Below, piece after piece: positions 227 to 14,099 of a DNA stretch of 64,000 bases (the first letter of the stretch is position 1; each line of letters starts with the position of its first letter). The translations under genes and the position numbers were made by a program. The DNA is taken from contig WAOW01000005.1 of NCBI GenBank assembly GCA_015521085.1, forward strand, positions 310,001-374,000. Reading direction: 5' to 3'. The notes under the pieces were generated by a model that saw nothing but the letters and a program-made list of their open reading frames with translations, ran no database searches and was not told where the DNA came from. This DNA comes from Candidatus Thermodiscus eudorianus. GTDB lineage: Archaea; Thermoproteota; Thermoprotei_A; Sulfolobales; Acidilobaceae.

Positions 227-1624
227 ATGGCTTATGGAGTGAGGGAGTATACTAGGGTAAGGGAGATCAAGGGCCCCCTCCTAATAGTGGAGGGCGTCTC
301 AAACGTCGCCTACGATGAGATCGTGGAGGTCGAGCTGGCCAGCGGCGAGAAGAGGAGGGGCAGGGTACTAGACGTCCAGAGGGGAGTAGCCGTAGTACAG
401 GTATTCGAGGGGACAACGGGCATCACAACAACCGGGACCAGGGTGAGGTTCCTGGGGAGACCCCTTGAGATACCGGTAAGCGAGGACATGCTTGGCAGGA
501 TATTCAACGGCCTAGGAGAGCCGATCGACAACGGGCCCCCGATAGTGGCAGAGGACGAGAGAGACGTAAACGGTGCCCCACTGAACCCGAGCGAGAGGGC
601 CTATCCAGAGGACTTCATCCAGACCGGAGTAAGCGCGATAGACGGGATGAACACCCTGGTCAGGGGCCAGAAGCTACCGATATTCAGCGGCAGCGGCCTG
701 CCCCACAACGTGCTCGCAGCCCAAATAGCCAGGCAGGCAACCGTAAGGGGCGAGGCGGAAGAGTTCGCAGTAGTATTCGCAGCGATAGGAATAAAGTACG
801 ACGACTTCATATTCTTCAAGAAGTTCTTCGAGGAGACGGGCGCCCTAAACAGGGTAGCCATGTTCGTCAACCTAGCCGACGAGCCAGCTATGATTAGGCT
901 GGTGACGCCCAGGGCGGCCCTGACACTAGCCGAGTACCTGGCATACGAGAGGGACATGCACGTCCTAGTGATACTGACCGATATGACAAACTACGCAGAA
1001 GCCCTCAGAGAGATCTCTGCAGCGCGAGAGGAGGTACCTGGGAGGCAGGGATACCCGGGATACCTATACAGCGACCTCGCAAGCATCTACGAGAGGGCCG
1101 GCAGGGTCAAGGGCAAGAAGGGCAGTATAACCCAGATGCCCATACTCACGATGCCCAACGACGATATAACACACCCAATCCCCGACCTGACAGGCTACAT
1201 CACAGAGGGCCAGATAGTCCTCAGCAGGGAACTACACAACAGGGGAATCTACCCGCCGATAAACGTGCTCATGAGCCTCTCAAGACTCATGAAGGAGGGA
1301 ATAGGCCCCGGCAAGACGCGTGAGGACCACGCGGACGTGAGCAATCAGCTATACGCGGCGTACTCCAGGGGAGTAGAGCTCAGGAGCCTAGCAGCAGTGG
1401 TCGGAGAGGAGAGCCTAAGCCCGGTGGACAGGAAGTACCTGGAGTTCGCAGACCTATTCGAGCAGCGGTTCCTAAAGCAGGGAGAAAGGGAGAACAGGAC
1501 GCTGGAGCAGACGCTTGACATAGCATGGGAGATACTAGCCATACTACCGGAGGAGGAGCTGACCAACATAAAGGAGAAGTACATAAAGAAGTATCATCCA
1601 AAGTACAGGAGCCAACAGGCCTAG
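227..1624 (+). CDS. atpB: A-type ATP synthase subunit B
   Basis: This 465-residue protein is the non-catalytic regulatory B subunit of the archaeal ATP synthase A3B3 head. It has the family's usual length. The nucleotide-binding region reads [19 protein letters not shown] (residues 147-165) in place of a true Walker A motif, which is diagnostic of B rather than A subunits. Other family segments are [18 protein letters not shown] and the [12 protein letters not shown] stretch. The ATG at 227 is preceded by a strong purine-rich site. The gene directly follows atpA, but the D subunit that usually lies next is about 59 kb away at 61061-61711. Its stop overlaps the stop of the convergent thiolase gene by 4 bases. 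Confidence 0.97.
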
Positions 1625-2583
1625 CCGAGACCCCTAACCATCTCCCTGATTCTTTCCCTCACCCTAGCGCCCAGAGCCTCGCCCTTCAACTTGAAGGTCA
1701 ACCTGCAGAGCGAGCAGATACCACTACTAGAGAGGAGGCCGCAGTACTTGCACCCCTCGACCCTAGCCTCAGCGGCCGGGTAGCTCGATATCCTCTCGGC
1801 CAGCTTGTTCAGGAAGCCTAGCTTGAGGCTGGGCTTCTCCTCCTCAAGCCTGTTCAAGTACTCCTTGACTCGGAAGTCCAGGCTCGTGAACCTAGCGTGG
1901 GGGCAGTCCCTGTGGAGGTAGGGTAGACCCTTGGCTATAACGTAGAGGAACGACTCCCTCTCGTACACATTGTAGAGGGGCCTTATGCGTGGAGCGGCTA
2001 GCCCCGGTATGCCCTCTGTACTAGGGCCTAGCTTCCTTATTGCGTCGAGCTCTTGAGCTAGAAAGTTCTTGACGGCGAGCGACGCTATGTCGTCGGCGTT
2101 ATGCCCTGTAGCCACCTTGGCGTCCAGCTCCACTCCTACGGCGTTATAGAGGTACCTCTTGACAGCGCCGCATATGCTGCAGGCCGGCCTCCTAAGCCTC
2201 ATAGACGCGCTGGGTATGGTGAAGTCCAGCTCCTCCTGCAGGCTAAACACTATTAAGGGCACGTCTAGGAGCCTGGCCAGCTCCTCCACGATCTTCCTGG
2301 ACCCCCTGCTGTAGTCGCCGATGCCCAGATCGACGTGGAAGGCTATGAGGTCGAACTCTATCTCTCCCCGGAGAGCCGCTAGCGTGGAGAGCAGGGTAGC
2401 ACTATCCTTACCCCCACTAACGGCGGCGACAACCCTATCCCCAGGCCTAACCAATCCATACCTCTTTACAGTCCTCTTAACCTTGGACTCCACGAACTCG
2501 GCATAGTGCGTGCTACAATAATGCCGCCTCTGGTATGGCACGTAGGCTATAGCAGGCCTTCCACACAAGCTGCATCTAGCCAC
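1621..2583 (-). CDS. ttuA: tRNA 2-thiolation enzyme of the TtuA/Ncs6 family
   Basis: This 320-residue N-type ATP pyrophosphatase adenylates a tRNA uridine carbonyl and inserts sulfur (s2T54 in thermophiles, or s2U34 in NcsA paralogues). The PP-loop SGGKDS is at residues 56-61. Two zinc-knuckle regions frame the protein: CSLC plus HYCSTH at the N-terminus and CKYC...CSLC at the C-terminus. C135, C138 (CSIC) and C227 (RDCPH) match the three cysteines that hold the [4Fe-4S] cluster in characterised TtuA. The start overlaps by 8 bases the upstream gene for a ubiquitin-like protein ending in GG, the expected sulfur donor, so the two are translationally coupled. Which uridine is modified cannot be told from sequence alone. 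Confidence 0.9.
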
Positions 2584-2782
2584 CGCTAATCACTCTCACA
2601 AGCACGACCTCCTCCCCCTCAACCTCCTCGTCCTCGGGCAGGGGCGATCCATCGACCAGGACGATATAGGACTCACGCGACAGCCCTAGCTCTCTAAGTA
2701 TCCTCTCACCGGTAACCCTGCCCTCCAACTCCAGCGAAACCACCTTGTTGCCAGGCAGTATCCTAACTCGCACCCTAGCCAC
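2576..2782 (-). CDS. MoaD/ThiS-like ubiquitin-fold sulfur carrier
   Basis: This is a 68-residue beta-grasp protein ending in VRVISGG. The terminal di-glycine is the hallmark of MoaD, ThiS, TtuB and archaeal SAMP proteins, which are adenylated and thiocarboxylated at that glycine. Internal segments ERILRELGLSRESYIVLVDG and LPEDEEVEGEEVVLVRV fit the ThiS/TtuB pattern. It overlaps the TtuA-like gene by 8 bases, which argues that it carries sulfur for tRNA thiolation. A dual role in molybdopterin synthesis or as a protein modifier remains possible. No E1-like activating enzyme is encoded nearby. Confidence 0.88.
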   Translation of the reverse strand: MARVRVRILPGNKVVSLELEGRVTGERILRELGLSRESYIVLVDGSPLPEDEEVEGEEVVLVRVISGG

Positions 2783-2891
2783 CTAAACCACACCCCCGGC
2801 AGAGGGACCCCCAGGCCTCCCGTGATCTCCCTATGCATACATCTATAAGCGCCTATAACGGTCAAGTAGCCAAGCGGGGTGTATTAAGGAG

Positions 2892-3497
2892 ATGTATAAG
2901 CCCTATAGAGGGTCCCTAGCCCCGGCGATCCTAGCAATGACGGTCCTAGCCCTCGCAACCGCAACTCCCCTGATAGCGCATGGGGGCTCGACGTGTAAGT
3001 ACTACTTCGTGATATACGGGCAAGACTGGTGCCCCCACTGTCAGAGGATGGAGAAGTTTGTCAAGGAGACGTATGGCGAGCAGTGCCTGGAGTTCCGCGA
3101 CCTTGACGTCCCCAAGTGGAACGGTAACTTTACCATGATTATAAAGAGGTTGAACAACGTCTACAACGTGCCCATACAGCCCGCGTTCCCACTAACCGGT
3201 ATATGGAAGGATGGAAGGCTAAGGGCCATAGTCCTGGGCGAGGTTACCAAGCCCGACTCGATCGACTACATAGTACAGCGAGCCGACAAAGAGGGGAAGA
3301 ACTGGGTTGTAGTCTTCCTTGGAAGCAAGGCCTATGCTATAAAACCGGGAGAACAGATAATAGAGGCGTTCAAACCCCTAGGAAACAACACCAGCACCCC
3401 TCAGGCCGGCGGGGGTGTTAACAAGACGCTCTTATACGCGGGCATAGCGCTACTAGCCGTTGGAGTGGCTGGCGTGGTGTTGCTAGCCAGGAGGTAG
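2892..3497 (+). CDS. Secreted, membrane-anchored thioredoxin-fold protein (CPHC)
   Basis: This 201-residue protein begins with a hydrophobic export signal (about residues 9-29), followed by a thioredoxin-like domain with the active site WCPHC (C47-C50), as in DsbA-type oxidoreductases. A threonine/glycine-rich linker leads to a C-terminal membrane helix (about 180-198) and a basic tail, so the domain should face the outside. A TATA-like CTATAAG lies near 2841, and AAGGAG sits just before the ATG at 2892. It may form or isomerise disulfides in exported proteins, or reduce apocytochrome cysteines for the ccm system about 13 kb away. The substrate is inferred only. Confidence 0.75.
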   Translation: MYKPYRGSLAPAILAMTVLALATATPLIAHGGSTCKYYFVIYGQDWCPHCQRMEKFVKETYGEQCLEFRDLDVPKWNGNFTMIIKRLNNVYNVPIQPAFPLTGIWKDGRLRAIVLGEVTKPDSIDYIVQRADKEGKNWVVVFLGSKAYAIKPGEQIIEAFKPLGNNTSTPQAGGGVNKTLLYAGIALLAVGVAGVVLLARR

Positions 3498-3512
3498 ACG
3501 CGGGCCTGGAAA

Positions 3513-5414
3513 CTAGGCCAGTTCCAGGAGCTCGCTCGCCATTCTCAGGCTGCGCTTGCCGACCTCCTCCAAAACCCCACGGAGTTCCCCGTCGCTGTAG
3601 CCGCAGGTACGGCTAGCAACCTCATAGTCTTCGCGTAGCAGCTTGCCCCTCCTAGTATACCAGCCTGGGGTTGGGGGCTCCATTTTGAGGTCGGGGACTA
3701 CGATTACAAACTTCGAGTAGCTGGTTCCCGCGATCTTGTCCACTACCTTGGCTTCCGGCGCCTTGGATAGCTCGTGTGGCTCTAGGGGGTTTCTCCTCCT
3801 GAACACGTATATCTTGTCTCTGCCCTCGCTCTTGTAGGGGACGTATCTGTTCCAGCCAATTATGAAGAGGGGGTCGATACACCTCTCTAGTATGTTCTTG
3901 GCCACCGCGTTCACCTCCTGTGGGCTTCCCTTCAACCTCTCTATCACCGTGGTAGCTCTCTCGTCGGCGAGGATGATGCCATGCCAGTGCCTCCTATAGA
4001 TTAGGCCCCTAGCCGCTAGGACTAGGCTTGCGCACGCGTTCCTAAACCACCCGCGCTGGGATTCCCTAGCTGAGGCGTCGGCTTTCCACAGGATGTAGTC
4101 TAGTAGGTCTCTGGCCCTTCCTAAGCCCAGCCTTGTAACCAACTCCATAACCGGTGTATCGGTCAGGTATGCGAGGTCCCTCTCCATGTCACGGTACTCT
4201 CCTCCTATTAAAGGCCGGGCTCTCGCTGGCAGGTTTGCCAGTGCTTCGAGGACGGGATACTTCTCCAGCAGGTCTCTAGCCCGCTCCTCGCCATCCTCCA
4301 GGTCTTTCAGCAGGTAGCGGCCAATGGAGTATAGGAGTGCTAGTGTGCGTGACGCCATGTTGGAGTAGATCATTGATATATCGTGGAGGTACACGTCTCC
4401 ATACATGTATATCCTGGAGAGGAGTATGTTCTCGACAACAGACACCCCCTTATCCAGCACGCCCAGCCCAATGCTGACCCTATACTCCTCGCCGCTGAGG
4501 CTAGAGGTTATCCGGGGGACGACCGTCAAGACAGAGTAATACCTGTTGATGTCCCAAACGCCACTCCTGCTACCAGTATGCACAGTGTCCCGCAGAATGT
4601 AGTCGGCCCTGTCAACATCAATGGGCCCACTCAACAGGCTGGCTATAATGCACTCGGCCACCCTCTCAACATTACCGCGGTCGGCCTCGTACTCGGGGAG
4701 CAGTTTCCCCGCATCGGTTCTCCGGAACATCACCGGCTCGCAGCCAGAGCTCCAGGAATCCTTGTTATAGGCCTTATCAAGTATCGCGGCTACCCTCTTC
4801 AAGTCAACACTCTCACAGGCATACCTAACCTCGGGGCACCTGCCCTTATCTATACAGTCGGCCCTCGAAGCGACTAGGCTCAGCCCGAGGCTCTCGTGGT
4901 CGAAGCCCTCTATCGACAGCTCGCTTACAGTCACCTCCCGGTCGGGGCTGAAGTAGAGGAGGGGATCCCTCAGGGCATCCTCGCCCGGATGGCTAAGTGC
5001 TATGTGCCCCGAGTCGTGGTAGAGGGCTGCCGTCACAGCAACCGGGGTTAGCTCGACTAGCTTCACGGCTAGCTCCTTTAGGAAGCTGGCCAGCCCCTTT
5101 GCTAGAGCCTCAAGCGCGGGATCCTTCCGGTATTTCTCCAGGCTGGGTACCACGTGCTCCTGTATGTTTCTAGCCAGGTGTTCTATAGCCATCTTCATCA
5201 CATGGGCTACTCCGAGGCTGTGCTCGAACCTGTTGTGGACCGCTCCGGGATAGACTAGGTGGGCTAGGCTCAGCTGCTTTATGTCCCTGAGCCTCTGTAT
5301 TGTGAGCGTGTCGACGGCCGTGTCGAAGAAGTCCGAGGGTAGCTCTACGAATTGGTGGACCACGTCCTTCACTATCTTCGTCCTGTACCTGCACTTCTCC
5401 CTATTGTTGGCCAA
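3513..5414 (-). CDS. HD-domain phosphohydrolase (dGTPase/SAMHD1-like)
   Basis: This is a 633-residue HD-superfamily metal-dependent phosphohydrolase. The N-terminal part carries the family signature RLRDIKQLSLAHLVYPGAVH followed by NRFEHSLGV (first histidine H65). The HD pair lies in LYHDSGH (H133, D134), and a later DVDRADYILRD segment supplies the last aspartate. This is the arrangement of dNTP triphosphohydrolases and related archaeal HD proteins. The C-terminal 300 residues are family-specific and not recognised. The gene is transcribed away from the neighbouring 93-residue ORF across a region that holds a 14-bp inverted repeat. Nucleotide specificity is unknown. Confidence 0.85.
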   Translation of the reverse strand: MANNREKCRYRTKIVKDVVHQFVELPSDFFDTAVDTLTIQRLRDIKQLSLAHLVYPGAVHNRFEHSLGVAHVMKMAIEHLARNIQEHVVPSLEKYRKDPALEALAKGLASFLKELAVKLVELTPVAVTAALYHDSGHIALSHPGEDALRDPLLYFSPDREVTVSELSIEGFDHESLGLSLVASRADCIDKGRCPEVRYACESVDLKRVAAILDKAYNKDSWSSGCEPVMFRRTDAGKLLPEYEADRGNVERVAECIIASLLSGPIDVDRADYILRDTVHTGSRSGVWDINRYYSVLTVVPRITSSLSGEEYRVSIGLGVLDKGVSVVENILLSRIYMYGDVYLHDISMIYSNMASRTLALLYSIGRYLLKDLEDGEERARDLLEKYPVLEALANLPARARPLIGGEYRDMERDLAYLTDTPVMELVTRLGLGRARDLLDYILWKADASARESQRGWFRNACASLVLAARGLIYRRHWHGIILADERATTVIERLKGSPQEVNAVAKNILERCIDPLFIIGWNRYVPYKSEGRDKIYVFRRRNPLEPHELSKAPEAKVVDKIAGTSYSKFVIVVPDLKMEPPTPGWYTRRGKLLREDYEVASRTCGYSDGELRGVLEEVGKRSLRMASELLELA

Positions 5415-9362: not shown

Positions 9363-9438
9363 GCCGCCGTAGCTCAGCCGGCAGAGCGCCGCCCTGGTAA
9401 GGCGGAGGTCCCGGGTTCAAATCCCGGCGGCGGCTCCA
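9363..9438 (+). tRNA. tRNA-Thr (anticodon GGT)
   Basis: The cloverleaf is complete. The acceptor GCCGCCG pairs with CGGCGGC (9428-9434), the D stem is GCTC/GAGC, the anticodon stem CCGCC/GGCGG closes the loop CTGGTAA with anticodon GGT, and the T arm is CCGGG-TTCAAAT-CCCGG. The discriminator is T at 9435 and CCA (9436-9438) is encoded. There is no intron. The last 16 bases of the T arm and acceptor (9415-9430) are duplicated at 12341-12356, marking this gene as an integration site. Confidence 0.97.
9415..9430 (+). repeat. Attachment site copy inside tRNA-Thr (attL)
   Basis: GTTCAAATCCCGGCGG within the T arm and acceptor stem. Identical to the copy at 12341-12356. Confidence 0.85.
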
Positions 9439-9674
9439 AAACATCATTATAGAGTACAATACAAGTTAAAATTAGAAACAATCAAGTCCTCGACTATACT
9501 GCTATCAATTATTCAATCAATCTTCAGATCTGCTCTATGCTCGCTGTACGCGCTTGACTCCATAGAGGCGTAGAGCAGGGATTATGCGACTAGAGTCTTA
9601 GCTACAAGCCATGCCTCCTAACCAAGCCTCAAATAGCGGGATGGAGATTAATGGCCATGCAACTTTGAGTTTGG

Positions 9675-10547
9675 TTATGGGATGCATGGCGGGGGAGTTC
9701 GGTGGTTGAGAGTTGCGTAGTATTTGTATGTTGGTTTACGATTGGTCGAGTCTTTGAGGTCTTGTATGGCTTCTTTTAGGCTTGACCATGTGTATATTTC
9801 TAGGGTTTTGCTTGTGTCTAAGAGCATCACGTATAGTGTTGCTTGTGCGTGCGCGTTTTCACATATCGTCTCGAGTTGTATCTCGTATAGTTGGGCGTAA
9901 TGGGGGGTGGCAATATCAGGCGTCTGTGTTACGGGTTTTAGGTACTCTATTGTTGGAGGTTCACCGCAGCATGGATCCTCTACTAGGGGGGCTCGTAAGA
10001 AAGGTTTCGTATAGAATGTCAGTATGCAACCACTAGCCTGGATCATGCTTGCAGCTATGGTACCGGGTCTTGCTTTGTGGACTGCCTCGCACCTGGCTTT
10101 TATCCGTGTATGGTATACTATAAGGTCTACGAGCGTTTCTTCTCCGGGGTGTATAGTTATAGGTTTATACGAGGCTTGCAGGTTGTCCTCTGGATTATCG
10201 GCCCAGTGGAGTTCGAACCACCTCGACCAGGCTCCTGGGACGTCTTTATCCTCCCTTAGCTCTGATAGCTCTGATAACTTAAACCTCATTTTAGCTAAGC
10301 ATTGCAATGCTGGTTTTCTCCCTTTATTCACGATGGGAATGCTTATTACTGCACCGTAGGGGTTGCATAATGATGTTGAGTATCTGGGTATCCAGGCCCA
10401 TGAACTAGGCGCGTATTCCAGACGGGTTAAGGCCTCACCTGTTTTTATTTCCAATTTGGGCTTTGCTAGAACTCTATCGTACGTCTGCCATAGCAAGCTC
10501 ACGATGCCTGGAATCGAGGAGACTAGTGCAACTCCTAGGTCTCCCAC
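9675..10547 (-). CDS. Orphan protein of the tRNA-Thr element
   Basis: This 290-residue protein starts at the ATG at 10547. A short hydrophobic N-terminal stretch (about residues 5-20) precedes a soluble region rich in Cys (12 cysteines, including DPCCGEPP), Pro and Tyr. The segment ISIPIVNKGRKPALQCLAKMRF followed by IHPGEETLVDLIVYH looks like a beta-sandwich. No family is recognised. Its codon usage (more ATA/TAT, fewer GC-ending codons) differs from the core genes. It is divergent from the 333-residue gene, and the 264 bases between them would hold both promoters. Confidence 0.6.
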   Translation of the reverse strand: MGDLGVALVSSIPGIVSLLWQTYDRVLAKPKLEIKTGEALTRLEYAPSSWAWIPRYSTSLCNPYGAVISIPIVNKGRKPALQCLAKMRFKLSELSELREDKDVPGAWSRWFELHWADNPEDNLQASYKPITIHPGEETLVDLIVYHTRIKARCEAVHKARPGTIAASMIQASGCILTFYTKPFLRAPLVEDPCCGEPPTIEYLKPVTQTPDIATPHYAQLYEIQLETICENAHAQATLYVMLLDTSKTLEIYTWSSLKEAIQDLKDSTNRKPTYKYYATLNHRTPPPCIP

Positions 10548-10811
10548 TACCTAGCCCGCCTCTCCGCCGTTATCACCTGCAAAATTAAAGTGTTGGAGGA
10601 ATCAGCTAGCGAAGTCCTCATTTACTCTAACATTAACTATAGTCTCCTTCTCAAGATGGCTTCTTCCTTGAAAGCGATAAGATGCTATCTCTCGATGGGA
10701 ACGCATTAGCGTGCATTCAAGGTATGAGTTGTGATGTTATCCGGGAAGCCCCTCGGTAAAGAACCCAAATATTAGGCTGGAGTCTCTAACGGTGGTAAGG
10801 GTATAACTAGT

Positions 10812-11813
10812 ATGCCCAGATTCACGACTACGTTAAGAAAGCCAGGACTGACCTACGCGCTACTTCTTCTCTTAGCTGGTATAGTAATCTTAGCTCTAGG
10901 TATTAGTTTGGAGAGTAGATTAAGCAATGCATTCCTAGGTATCGGTACAGCCCTCGTATCCTCTGGCGCGATAATGACAGCCCAGTCCCTGGCTCAGCTA
11001 GAGATCCAGGAAGCCTTAGAGAGCAGGAGGGAGCATAAGCTAAAGCTGAACGAGCTAGCCGGGCGTATCCTTGAAGGGGATGAAACCCGTTCCTTCCTAA
11101 AGAATGGATTAGAAGGCACGGAGTTCGACGTGTTCTCCACGAGACCATGTCAAGCACTCGAAGGGTTTAAGGGATATAATTATATCCTTCTAGAGGATCT
11201 AGACAATCACCTTGAAGGCAAGCCCGTGAAGAAGTTACAGGAAATCTGTGAAACGCTTGAAGTCCAAACGAGCTCTCTAAGGAGAGAGGTAGATAAGGTA
11301 TCCCTCAACCTAGTAGAGCCTATCTTACTGAAACTAAGCAGCCGATATACTGAGCTAGAAGCTAATAGAGATGGGTTAAGAGGCTTCATAGGACATCTAA
11401 TAGAATACGCTGTAAAGAACATGCACTATAAACAGCTTGCATGGACGCCTGAGATTCTGCTAGAAGAGGTTCTACGTCAAATGGTAGAAGCTATGGAAAG
11501 CTTAGGACTCAGAATAAATAAAGTAATTAAACAAAACAAGGAACACGTAGAAATAAGAATAGGTGTATATGCCTTAGGACATGTAGAAGCCCTTCAGGCA
11601 ACCCGTGAGAGTCTTCAGGAAGCTCTCAGAGAAATATTAGAGAAGACCTTAAGACAGGAAATACCCAAACACGCCAAGAGCCTAGTATCAAAAGCGGAGG
11701 AATCCTCAAAAACAGTACGCAAGGCGGAACAAATTAGACAAGAATTAGTACGACAACTACGCGAACTAAAGGCAAAAACCTACCTTCCTGGTATCTGCTC
11801 CTATATAAAATAA
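10812..11813 (+). CDS. Membrane-anchored coiled-coil protein of the tRNA-Thr element
   Basis: This is a 333-residue protein. Two adjacent hydrophobic helices (about residues 14-32 and 40-58) form a hairpin, followed by about 270 residues dominated by charged heptad-like helices such as VQTSSLRREVDKVSLNL and EALREILEKTLRQEI. The product should sit on the cytoplasmic membrane with a long rod. No enzymatic motif is visible. With the divergent 290-residue gene it makes up the coding content of the element. A role in entry exclusion, defence or partition is possible but not supported by any motif. Confidence 0.65.
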   Translation: MPRFTTTLRKPGLTYALLLLLAGIVILALGISLESRLSNAFLGIGTALVSSGAIMTAQSLAQLEIQEALESRREHKLKLNELAGRILEGDETRSFLKNGLEGTEFDVFSTRPCQALEGFKGYNYILLEDLDNHLEGKPVKKLQEICETLEVQTSSLRREVDKVSLNLVEPILLKLSSRYTELEANRDGLRGFIGHLIEYAVKNMHYKQLAWTPEILLEEVLRQMVEAMESLGLRINKVIKQNKEHVEIRIGVYALGHVEALQATRESLQEALREILEKTLRQEIPKHAKSLVSKAEESSKTVRKAEQIRQELVRQLRELKAKTYLPGICSYIK

Positions 11814-12340
11814 CATAATTATAGTTGTTTATAGTTATATTTAACGTAATGTAAGCAGGTGTAAGCGGATTAGGTCTGAGACACATAACAGAAAGTCGTG
11901 TATAGATATAGCCGAGATCTCAAGGGAGTTAGACAAGTTGGTTCCCTGTCAGTTAGTTTTACTTCGAGGATTAGCACGAGGCGAGGTCAAGTCCTCGTGG
12001 TGTTATCTAGGGAGTGCTAGCTTGTGGATGGAGTTAGGGTTGACGGGGGGATTTGAGTATTAGAGGAGTGGGCCCACGCTACTCTACTAGTGATACCTTA
12101 GTCTTTCTCTAGACGCCTATCCCGGTATTCTGATTTTGAGTGGAGCTAGCCTGATAGAGGGAGAGTGCGTCGGGATTGAGTTTATAGGTCCATTAACCTT
12201 GCTATATGCTTGCTATACACGATATACTTGCGTCTCGCCTTAAATCGAGTGGAAATCTCGGCTCTGCACAGATAGTCGTCCAGCAGACTAGCATAGCCCT
12301 ATATTTGTTAACATCCTTCCTCCCTTAATCACGCTCTAAT
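11814..12340. other. Gene-free right end of the integrated element
   Basis: There are 527 bases without a credible ORF on either strand. It starts with an AT-rich tract (TATAGTTATATTTAACG) and ends at the attachment repeat. No replication-origin iterons were recognised by eye. Confidence 0.5.
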
Positions 12341-12356
12341 GTTCAAATCCCGGCGG
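12341..12356 (+). repeat. Attachment site remnant (attR)
   Basis: GTTCAAATCCCGGCGG, a 16/16 match to tRNA-Thr 9415-9430. The match ends abruptly on both sides and no other tRNA structure is present, so this is a partial duplication and not a tRNA gene. Confidence 0.85.
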
Positions 12357-12424: not shown

Positions 12425-12920
12425 TTGGCCGATGCGTTACTCATCCGAGGCCGACTGGCCAGACGCGTCAGAGAGGAGGCCGAGAAGCTGGGTTTCAGCG
12501 TTGAGGAGTACCTTGTCGAGGTTCTTAGCCAGAGCCTCGACCCGAAGGACAGGGCTCGGGAGTATGTCGAGGCAGCGGAGGATCCGGTTGAGGAGGCCCG
12601 GGAGGAGCTTGAGAGGGGTAATGTTCGTCAAGCGGCTGAGAAGCTTTGGGGCGCCGCCGTTCTAGCGGTGAAAGCCTACGCATACTGGAGGGAAGGTAAA
12701 CGTTTAGCCAGCCACGGGGAGCTCTGGGAGTGGAAGAGGAGGCTTGAGGAAGAGCTGGGAGAATGGGTAAGCGACTCCTCGACTCCTGGTATGCTGCCGT
12801 GCTATGCATACCTGCTTCTATGAAGGCTGGTGTACCGGGAAGGATATCGCTACCGCCTGGAAGAGAATAGTGAAACTCGTAAAGGAGGTAGCCTCCCTGA
12901 TAAAGCGCTCCAAGGATTAG
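12425..12920 (+). pseudogene. PaREP1-family protein, frameshifted
   Basis: The first about 120 residues (TTG start at 12425) match the archaeal PaREP1/HEPN-like pattern: YVEAAEDPVEEAREELERGNVRQAAEKLWGAAVLAVKAYA, then SHGELWEWKRRLEEELGEWVSDS. After about 12780 this frame degenerates. The expected C-terminal part continues in other frames: WYAAVLCIP from 12787, and FYEGWCTGKDIATAWKRI with VKLVKEVASLIKRSKD from 12816 to a TAG at 12918-12920. At least two frame changes are therefore needed to restore the product. The gene lies 68 bases beyond attR. Sequencing error cannot be excluded. Confidence 0.72.
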
Positions 12921-13229
12921 GCCAGGATCTTCTCTCCCATCCAGTCGATGTGGGGTTCGAAGCCTGCTAGTCCAGCCCTCTGCATTAACGTAGCCTGTAC
13001 CGCTATAGTAGTCTCCGGCAACCCTTCCGGTTACCCTAAGTATATTATAGTATAAGCAAATTTTCAATAAATATGGGTTTGGAACTGGGGTTCGATCGAT
13101 GAAATCGTATACTCTAGAGTATATTTGACAAGGCGGGTAGGATTGAGAAGCCGTTCTTAGGAGGTCGAGGTATGAAGCCCCCTGGATAGAGCTTACGAGG
13201 CGGGGCCAGGCATAGCTCTACACCGTGGT
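12921..13229. other. Gene-poor stretch with a possible coding remnant
   Basis: No complete gene is seen. On the minus strand, about 35 codons (roughly 12921-13026) read AVQATLMQRAGLAGFEPHI then DWMGEKILA and stop, which looks like a detached protein C-terminus, but it has no start and its family is not recognised. The rest is AT-rich. Confidence 0.35.
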
Positions 13230-14099
13230 CTATATATACTTTAGGAGCTTGGCATTGGCGTGCCTAGACCTCGCCAGGGCCAGCCACTCCTCAAGAGATG
13301 ACCCCCTGAGGCGCTTCCACCAATCCCTCCTAACCTGGTTGACTCCTGCCACATTGATCTCGTAGTATGCAATGCCCTCCTTCTCAGACAGCTTAACCCT
13401 AATCCACCCAGAGACGTCAACGGCACCAGACGCCCACCACTCTCCATACTCCTCCATGTCAGAGGGAGGGACTATCACGTGACTCGACCCGCCGCCATGG
13501 AAAACGTATCTCTTCGTCCTGAAGGGATAGGCTGCGAAGTCAGCGCCTATTACTGGCGTGAAGAAGTCCAGGGCCCTGGACAGGTTAGCCTTTATCCAGT
13601 GTCCCTGCAGGCTGAACATGTATGACGGGTTAACGAACACGTCTGCCCCGGCCAGGAATAGTTCGAGGGAGGCCTCGGGGAAGCTCCAGAAATCAGCGCA
13701 CACCGCTACTCCAAGCCTAGCCTTCCCAATGTCAACCACTGTATAGGGCCCATTCCAAGCCTGGAAACCCCACAATCTGCTCTCCAGCCTACCGATGAAC
13801 CTCTTCCTCTGCCTCGCGAGGACCTCTCCACGGGGCGAGTATATTGTTGCCGTGTTGTAGAGGGACCCTCCCTCGCGATATGCAATCCCCGCAACCACAA
13901 AAGCTCCTAGATCCCTCACAGCCTCTACTAGATCCCTCGTCTCATGGAACGGGAAGTATTCTGGGAAAACAACAAGATCCGGCTCATAAACTGCCGCCTG
14001 GTCTAGTAGCTTAACCGCCTTCTCCGGGTTCCTCCTATCGGCCGGGTCATTATCGACTGGCACAGGCTGTACCACCGCGACCTTGAGCGTGCTAGACAA
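13230..14099 (-). CDS. Carbon-nitrogen hydrolase (nitrilase superfamily)
   Basis: This 289-residue protein has the complete Glu-Lys-Cys catalytic triad of the superfamily: E47 in VVFPEYFP, K99 in RQRKRFIGR and C134 in LGVAVCADFW. The length is typical for a single nitrilase domain, as in amidases, omega-amidases and N-carbamoyl amidohydrolases. It hydrolyses a C-N bond of a small cytosolic substrate that cannot be named from sequence. An iterated palindrome copy at 13860-13870 encodes Gly-Gly-Ser-Leu. It stands alone, with upstream gene-free sequence of about 325 bases. Confidence 0.88.
   Translation of the reverse strand: MSSTLKVAVVQPVPVDNDPADRRNPEKAVKLLDQAAVYEPDLVVFPEYFPFHETRDLVEAVRDLGAFVVAGIAYREGGSLYNTATIYSPRGEVLARQRKRFIGRLESRLWGFQAWNGPYTVVDIGKARLGVAVCADFWSFPEASLELFLAGADVFVNPSYMFSLQGHWIKANLSRALDFFTPVIGADFAAYPFRTKRYVFHGGGSSHVIVPPSDMEEYGEWWASGAVDVSGWIRVKLSEKEGIAYYEINVAGVNQVRRDWWKRLRGSSLEEWLALARSRHANAKLLKYI
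13860..13870. repeat. GAGGGWCCCTC palindrome (A centre), in CDS
   Basis: Exact copy inside the nitrilase-family gene, Gly-Gly-Ser-Leu frame on the minus strand. Confidence 0.9.

Follow-up and report, generated by a model that had tools for sequence, protein, structure and literature searches.

A threonine tRNA gene in the 64-kb stretch of DNA analysed here (the window), which comes from a heat-loving archaeon of the family Acidilobaceae, is followed, 2926 bp downstream, by a second exact copy of a 16-bp piece of itself, which raises the question of what lies between the two copies and how it came to be there. The original prediction had recognised this duplication and, between the copies, two genes of 290 and 333 aa with long gene-free flanks, all of which we found at the locus, and had proposed a non-autonomous or decayed integrative element. 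Our comparison with related genomes indicates that the segment is very probably what remains, in degenerate form, of a plasmid or provirus, an integrative element of the Acidilobaceae/Aeropyrum group, which would have been inserted by its own integrase and would then have decayed. The features of the locus are listed below in window coordinates.

9363–9438, + strand: tRNA-Thr(GGT) called by ARAGORN, the rebuilt target gene, its 3' half being the putative attL copy
9415–9430, + strand: proximal copy of the 16-mer GTTCAAATCCCGGCGG, tRNA positions 53–68
9439–9580, + strand: element's left end, with homology to the stretch from tRNA to integrase start in the G015 and G016 elements
9532–9576, + strand: left double repeat GCTCTATGC-TC-GCTGTACGC with inverted GCGTAGAGC, differing at 4 positions from the repeat in intact relatives
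9544–9615, + strand: putative relic of an integrase start, interrupted in frame by a stop near codon 10, the remainder being deleted
9675–10547, − strand: P1, 290 aa, modelled at low confidence with a beta-rich body and a helix at the N-terminus, homologue in the G011 tRNA-His element (50% identity, E 6.6e-78)
10812–11813, + strand: P2, 333 aa, modelled (pLDDT 75) with hydrophobic helices at the N-terminus and a long helical domain, homologue in the G016 tRNA-Val element (37% identity, E 2.5e-64)
11943–12014, + strand: relic of a gene situated close to the right end in G015 (tblastn over 64 kb: 16 of 24 residues, E 7.9e-6)
12201–12220, + strand: right-end double repeat GCTATATGC-TT-GCTATACAC, 2 mismatches to the repeat of relatives
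12341–12356, + strand: distal copy of GTTCAAATCCCGGCGG, probable attR remnant
12425–12823, + strand: PaREP1-family gene (Pfam PF05942, E 5e-16; synteny), host flank just past the distal repeat

The target tRNA and the second copy of its 3' end

Empty counterparts of the site, proposed as a check in the original prediction, are present in four relatives, G007, G011, G012 and G039, the last being a genome of another family. In each of them the window's PaREP1 gene has a homologue directly behind tRNA-Thr(GGT), without an insert between, the distance from the tRNA end to the PaREP1 match being ~170, 390, 230 and 275 bp, respectively, whereas 2.9 kb separates the two genes in the window. Because the relatives have tRNA and PaREP1 directly adjacent, we regard these 2.9 kb as inserted. 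The same 2.9 kb in the same place, which would have spoken against insertion, was not found in the relatives searched. A same-genus genome, G002, carries the upstream genes and the tRNA as in the window, but a CRISPR-like array with the repeat GTTGAAAACAAGCAAGACTAAGAG lies ~0.6 kb downstream of its tRNA-Thr (L057, about 12790–13887). The PaREP1 gene of the window appears frameshifted compared with the four relatives (12425–12925; the frame changes from 0 to 2 and then to 1 around 12780–12800), suggesting either a pseudogene or a sequencing error.

The proximal 16-mer lies inside tRNA-Thr(GGT). When up to three mismatches were allowed, GTTCAAATCCCGGCGG had 4 matches in the window against 0.35 expected. 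It had been recognised from the outset that the 16-mer might simply be common as a tRNA fragment, and it is indeed frequent in tRNAs: 14 of the 15 exact copies in the host genome (G000; 1.52 Mb, 10 contigs, 95.5% complete) fall within tRNA-type 3' ends, namely ARAGORN-called tRNAs, apparently intron-split tRNAs that ARAGORN missed, or two tRNA-Arg 3' halves. The only copy outside such an end is the distal one in the window. This copy is without tRNA positions 69–76, being followed by ACTTTCC and not by CGGCTCCA, and no recognisable tRNA sequence lies to its left.

The closest comparison is offered by Acidilobaceae archaeon JALWEI01 (G015), which carries an intact element in the same tRNA-Thr(GGT) on contig JALWEI010000021. 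In both cases the tRNA is intact and part of its 3' half is repeated at the far end, over 16 bp in the window and over 50 bp (tRNA positions 27–76, on another contig) in G015. Since G015 duplicates 50 bp, the 16-mer, originally taken for the attachment duplication, is probably a shrunken remnant of a longer one. The gap of 68 bp between the distal 16-mer and PaREP1 is smaller than at every empty site, which fits a deletion of tRNA positions 69–76 plus some host flank.

Instead of the distal 16-mer, the real attR could be a weaker tRNA-like stretch at 12236–12268, whose spacing from the right-end repeat equals that of attR in G015. With tandem tRNA 3' halves present elsewhere in the host genome, this spacing may be read as a sign of at least two insertions, one after the other, at tRNA-Thr: the outer 16-mer would stem from an older element and the 12236–12268 stretch from a later one. 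However, the match of the stretch is not significant, ~5–6% of shuffles reaching the same score, and we consider such a history unlikely.

The element ends and the fate of the integrase

Returning to a single decayed element, both of its ends have counterparts in relatives. With the tRNA excluded, the left end matches the G015 element at 69% over 102 bp (E 3.6e-5) and the G016 tRNA-Val element at 75% over 55 bp (E 3.6e-5). In register with this DNA homology, the translated stretch LYALDSIEA*SRDY aligns to LYASGSMEAYSKN of the G016 integrase, an alignment that is weak alone (E 0.88); a search for further integrase fragments within the element yielded none that was convincing. The earlier statement that the segment has no integrase thus holds for the body of the gene and not for its start, which is present as a putative relic with a stop. 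Because only this start remains, we file the segment as a remnant and not as a functional type II (pNOB8-like) member, in which a whole tyrosine integrase gene would lie beside att. At the right end, the relic was detected with an 82-aa G015 gene as the query, and a stop follows soon after the match in the window.

Double repeats accompany both ends. The pattern in relatives is a double 9-mer, GCTATACGC-TT-GCTATACGC, joined in several elements by a third, inverted copy. It either follows the tRNA closely or overlies the integrase start in the tRNA-Thr element of G015, the tRNA-His element of G011 and the tRNA-Val elements of G016 and L086, as well as over a broken integrase in the Aeropyrum genome L087. 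Within the 64 kb, four or fewer mismatches are seen at two sites only, 9532 and 12201, one close to each element end, compared with 0.08 such sites per 64 kb of simulated sequence; in 60 simulated sequences of 64 kb, no site with three or fewer mismatches occurred. In G015 a weaker copy, with 5 mismatches by visual count, immediately precedes attR. It is possible that the double repeats serve as recombinase-binding or operator sites. A double repeat also lies beside tRNA-Thr(GGT) in G018 (L053:6399–6521) with no integrase following, probably a second relic of the element family at this tRNA; in the same genome an exact copy of tRNA positions 40–76 is found ~1 kb upstream of tRNA-Thr.

The G015 element resembles the window segment in its target tRNA, its left end including the integrase start, its right-end gene and the double repeat. 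It differs in its intact tyrosine integrase (451 aa) and complete 50-bp attR, and it is apparently much larger, although split over contigs. The G011 tRNA-His element and the G016 tRNA-Val element, the latter in an Aeropyrum-like genome, share with the window the double repeat and a homologue of P1 and P2, respectively, but occupy other tRNAs, possess an integrase (~50% identity to the G015 enzyme) and have a larger gene content. The G015 integrase is 25–31% identical to Sulfolobales plasmid integrases. Plasmids of the pNOB8 type (type II) in Sulfolobales use att sites of about 40–50 bp in the tRNA 3' half (PMC8371274); like them, the relatives have an integrase gene that is whole after insertion and att in the tRNA 3' half, but they are distant in sequence and the window copy has lost its integrase. 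In Sulfolobus islandicus, a degenerate SSV-like remnant resides in tRNA-Thr[GGT] (PMC3718332). That remnant is alike in its tRNA and in its severe decay, yet it is SSV-like (fusellovirus), whereas the window's relatives have the whole integrase gene beside the tRNA. Searches of phage records with the G015 integrase and the G016 element returned no relatives.

The lack of a complete integrase between the repeats could also mean that the segment never had one of its own and was a non-autonomous cassette mobilised in trans by a helper sharing the att site, the dependence that the original prediction had favoured. Integrase-less insertions with long tRNA 3' copies do exist, at tRNA-Thr in G028 and at tRNA-Arg(GCG) in the host genome, but a same-family integrase start can still be made out at the left end of the window segment and its distal att is eroded to 16 bp. 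Moreover, no helper integrase was found in the host genome, of which ~4.5% may be missing. The genome search for a tyrosine integrase turned up, as the only PF00589 match, a XerA-like protein (217.7 vs the NCBIfam cut-off of 220), and a direct search with the G011 integrase, which itself falls below the Pfam model, gave no match. We therefore regard mobilisation in trans as very unlikely; of the two alternatives first put forward, non-autonomous or decayed, it is decay that agrees with the empty sites, the end relics, the G015 element and the foreign GC content.

Integrase-less insertions were observed at several tRNA genes. A 965-bp insertion in tRNA-Arg(GCG) of the host genome (L059:8073–9115, G000:C2) is bounded by 49 bp that repeat the tRNA 3' half exactly and contains only an AF2212-like/PIN toxin–antitoxin pair. 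On another contig (L060, G000:C6, about 954–4335), four tRNA-Arg(CCG) 3' halves stand in tandem, with the toxin–antitoxin-like pairs DUF433/DUF5615 and UPF0175/DUF3368 between or beside them; no full tRNA-Arg(CCG) was found in the assembly, and the contig begins just upstream. Inverted repeats of similar spacing, judged by eye, precede the tRNA-Arg 3' halves (L059 near 8160; L060 near 930, 1490 and 3170) and read GTTGCA...TGCAAC or CGTCCCA/TGTCCCA...TGGGACG/TGGGACA. An origin of the tRNA-Arg fragments from split-tRNA genes was weighed and discarded, since they begin near position 27 and not at the anticodon splice point, and since they look like att copies. In G028, of another family, tRNA-Thr(GGT) carries a 5.0-kb insertion (L054:4206–9245) bounded by a near-complete copy of positions 28–76, with a DNA methylase gene and a 476-codon frame of unknown function and no integrase. 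Such defence-type cassettes between tRNA 3' halves (toxin–antitoxin, putative restriction–modification) might form a class serially inserted in trans, with the window segment as a worn member, but we give this idea very little credence.

The two remaining genes

P1 and P2 are both fully open. They had been described as orphans, but homologues of both are found in integrase-bearing elements, and the G011 element with the P1 homologue also encodes a VirD4/HerA-like ATPase. Among 214 genomes of the order, P1 was found in four besides the host's and P2 in a single one, and no relative has the two together. The G015 genome contains a P1 fragment, on a contig other than that of its tRNA-Thr element. 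Amino-acid changes per site are rarer than silent ones in both P1 (pN 0.36, pS 0.76) and P2 (pN 0.40, pS 0.67), which speaks for selection on these genes in elements, though not necessarily after insertion. In P2, identical codons at residues identical to the G016 homologue are more frequent in residues 49–77 (window ~10959–11045; 16/24) than elsewhere (33/96), with p 0.005 for a region that was picked after being seen.

Searches of P1 and P2 against Pfam, PHROG, PADLOC, NCBIfam and PDB sequences gave no confident match. The P1 model was too poor for a fold search, and the P2 model found nothing among PDB folds below E 0.001 (best 0.13). No relatives of P2 were found in viral contigs or phage records, and a channel-gene query of the genome contigs had no match. 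From the predicted helices, a membrane role for P1 and P2 may be guessed.

The composition of the segment is foreign, with a GC content of 45% vs 54% and a GC3 of 0.42–0.47 in the element genes vs 0.66–0.75 in neighbouring genes. Although the 16-mer is common to many tRNA genes of the genome, ordinary host genes beside a chance tRNA-like 16-mer are an extremely improbable explanation and were rejected because of the empty sites in relatives, to which the element homologues of P1 and P2, the element sequences at both ends and our own estimate of ~1e-6 chance occurrences of an exact 16-mer in 3 kb are to be added.

Proposed capture of the element by the chromosome

Taken together, insertion followed by decay is supported by the four empty sites, the integrase-bearing relative in the same tRNA, the relics at both ends, the foreign composition and the finding of no other integrase. 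We propose that the element entered the 3' half of tRNA-Thr(GGT) by recombination through a tyrosine integrase of its own. The element would have brought a new 3' half that kept the tRNA intact, and the host's original 3' half would have moved to the far end. The integrase gene would have gained a stop and then been deleted beyond its first codons, the bulk of the element would have been lost, and the far att copy would have been reduced to 16 bp, leaving P1 and P2 as element genes that are still open. With no integrase and an eroded att, excision would no longer be expected. The order of these steps and the present immobility are what we infer from the compared sequences; most likely the element was immobilised through loss of its own integrase.

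Against this scheme stands the distal repeat, which is perfect over 16 bp, and the remaining 34 bp known from G015 have left no clear trace. This would be an odd outcome of point decay, and two deletions would be needed. The insertion may, given the open P1 and P2, be more recent than assumed or still of use. The scheme is further weakened by the lack of a relative combining P1 and P2 and by the division of the G015 element between contigs.

Sulfolobales often carry degenerate remnants at their tRNA genes, and integrase loss and att mutation are described routes to gene capture (PMC8371274). The insert is a further case of the decay already described at archaeal tRNA genes. It would document the capture of an element by the chromosome in which the integrase was lost, one att was eroded and two genes survived. 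The conserved repeat pattern, in turn, marks the ends of a poorly described Acidilobaceae/Aeropyrum element family and can serve for finding further members.
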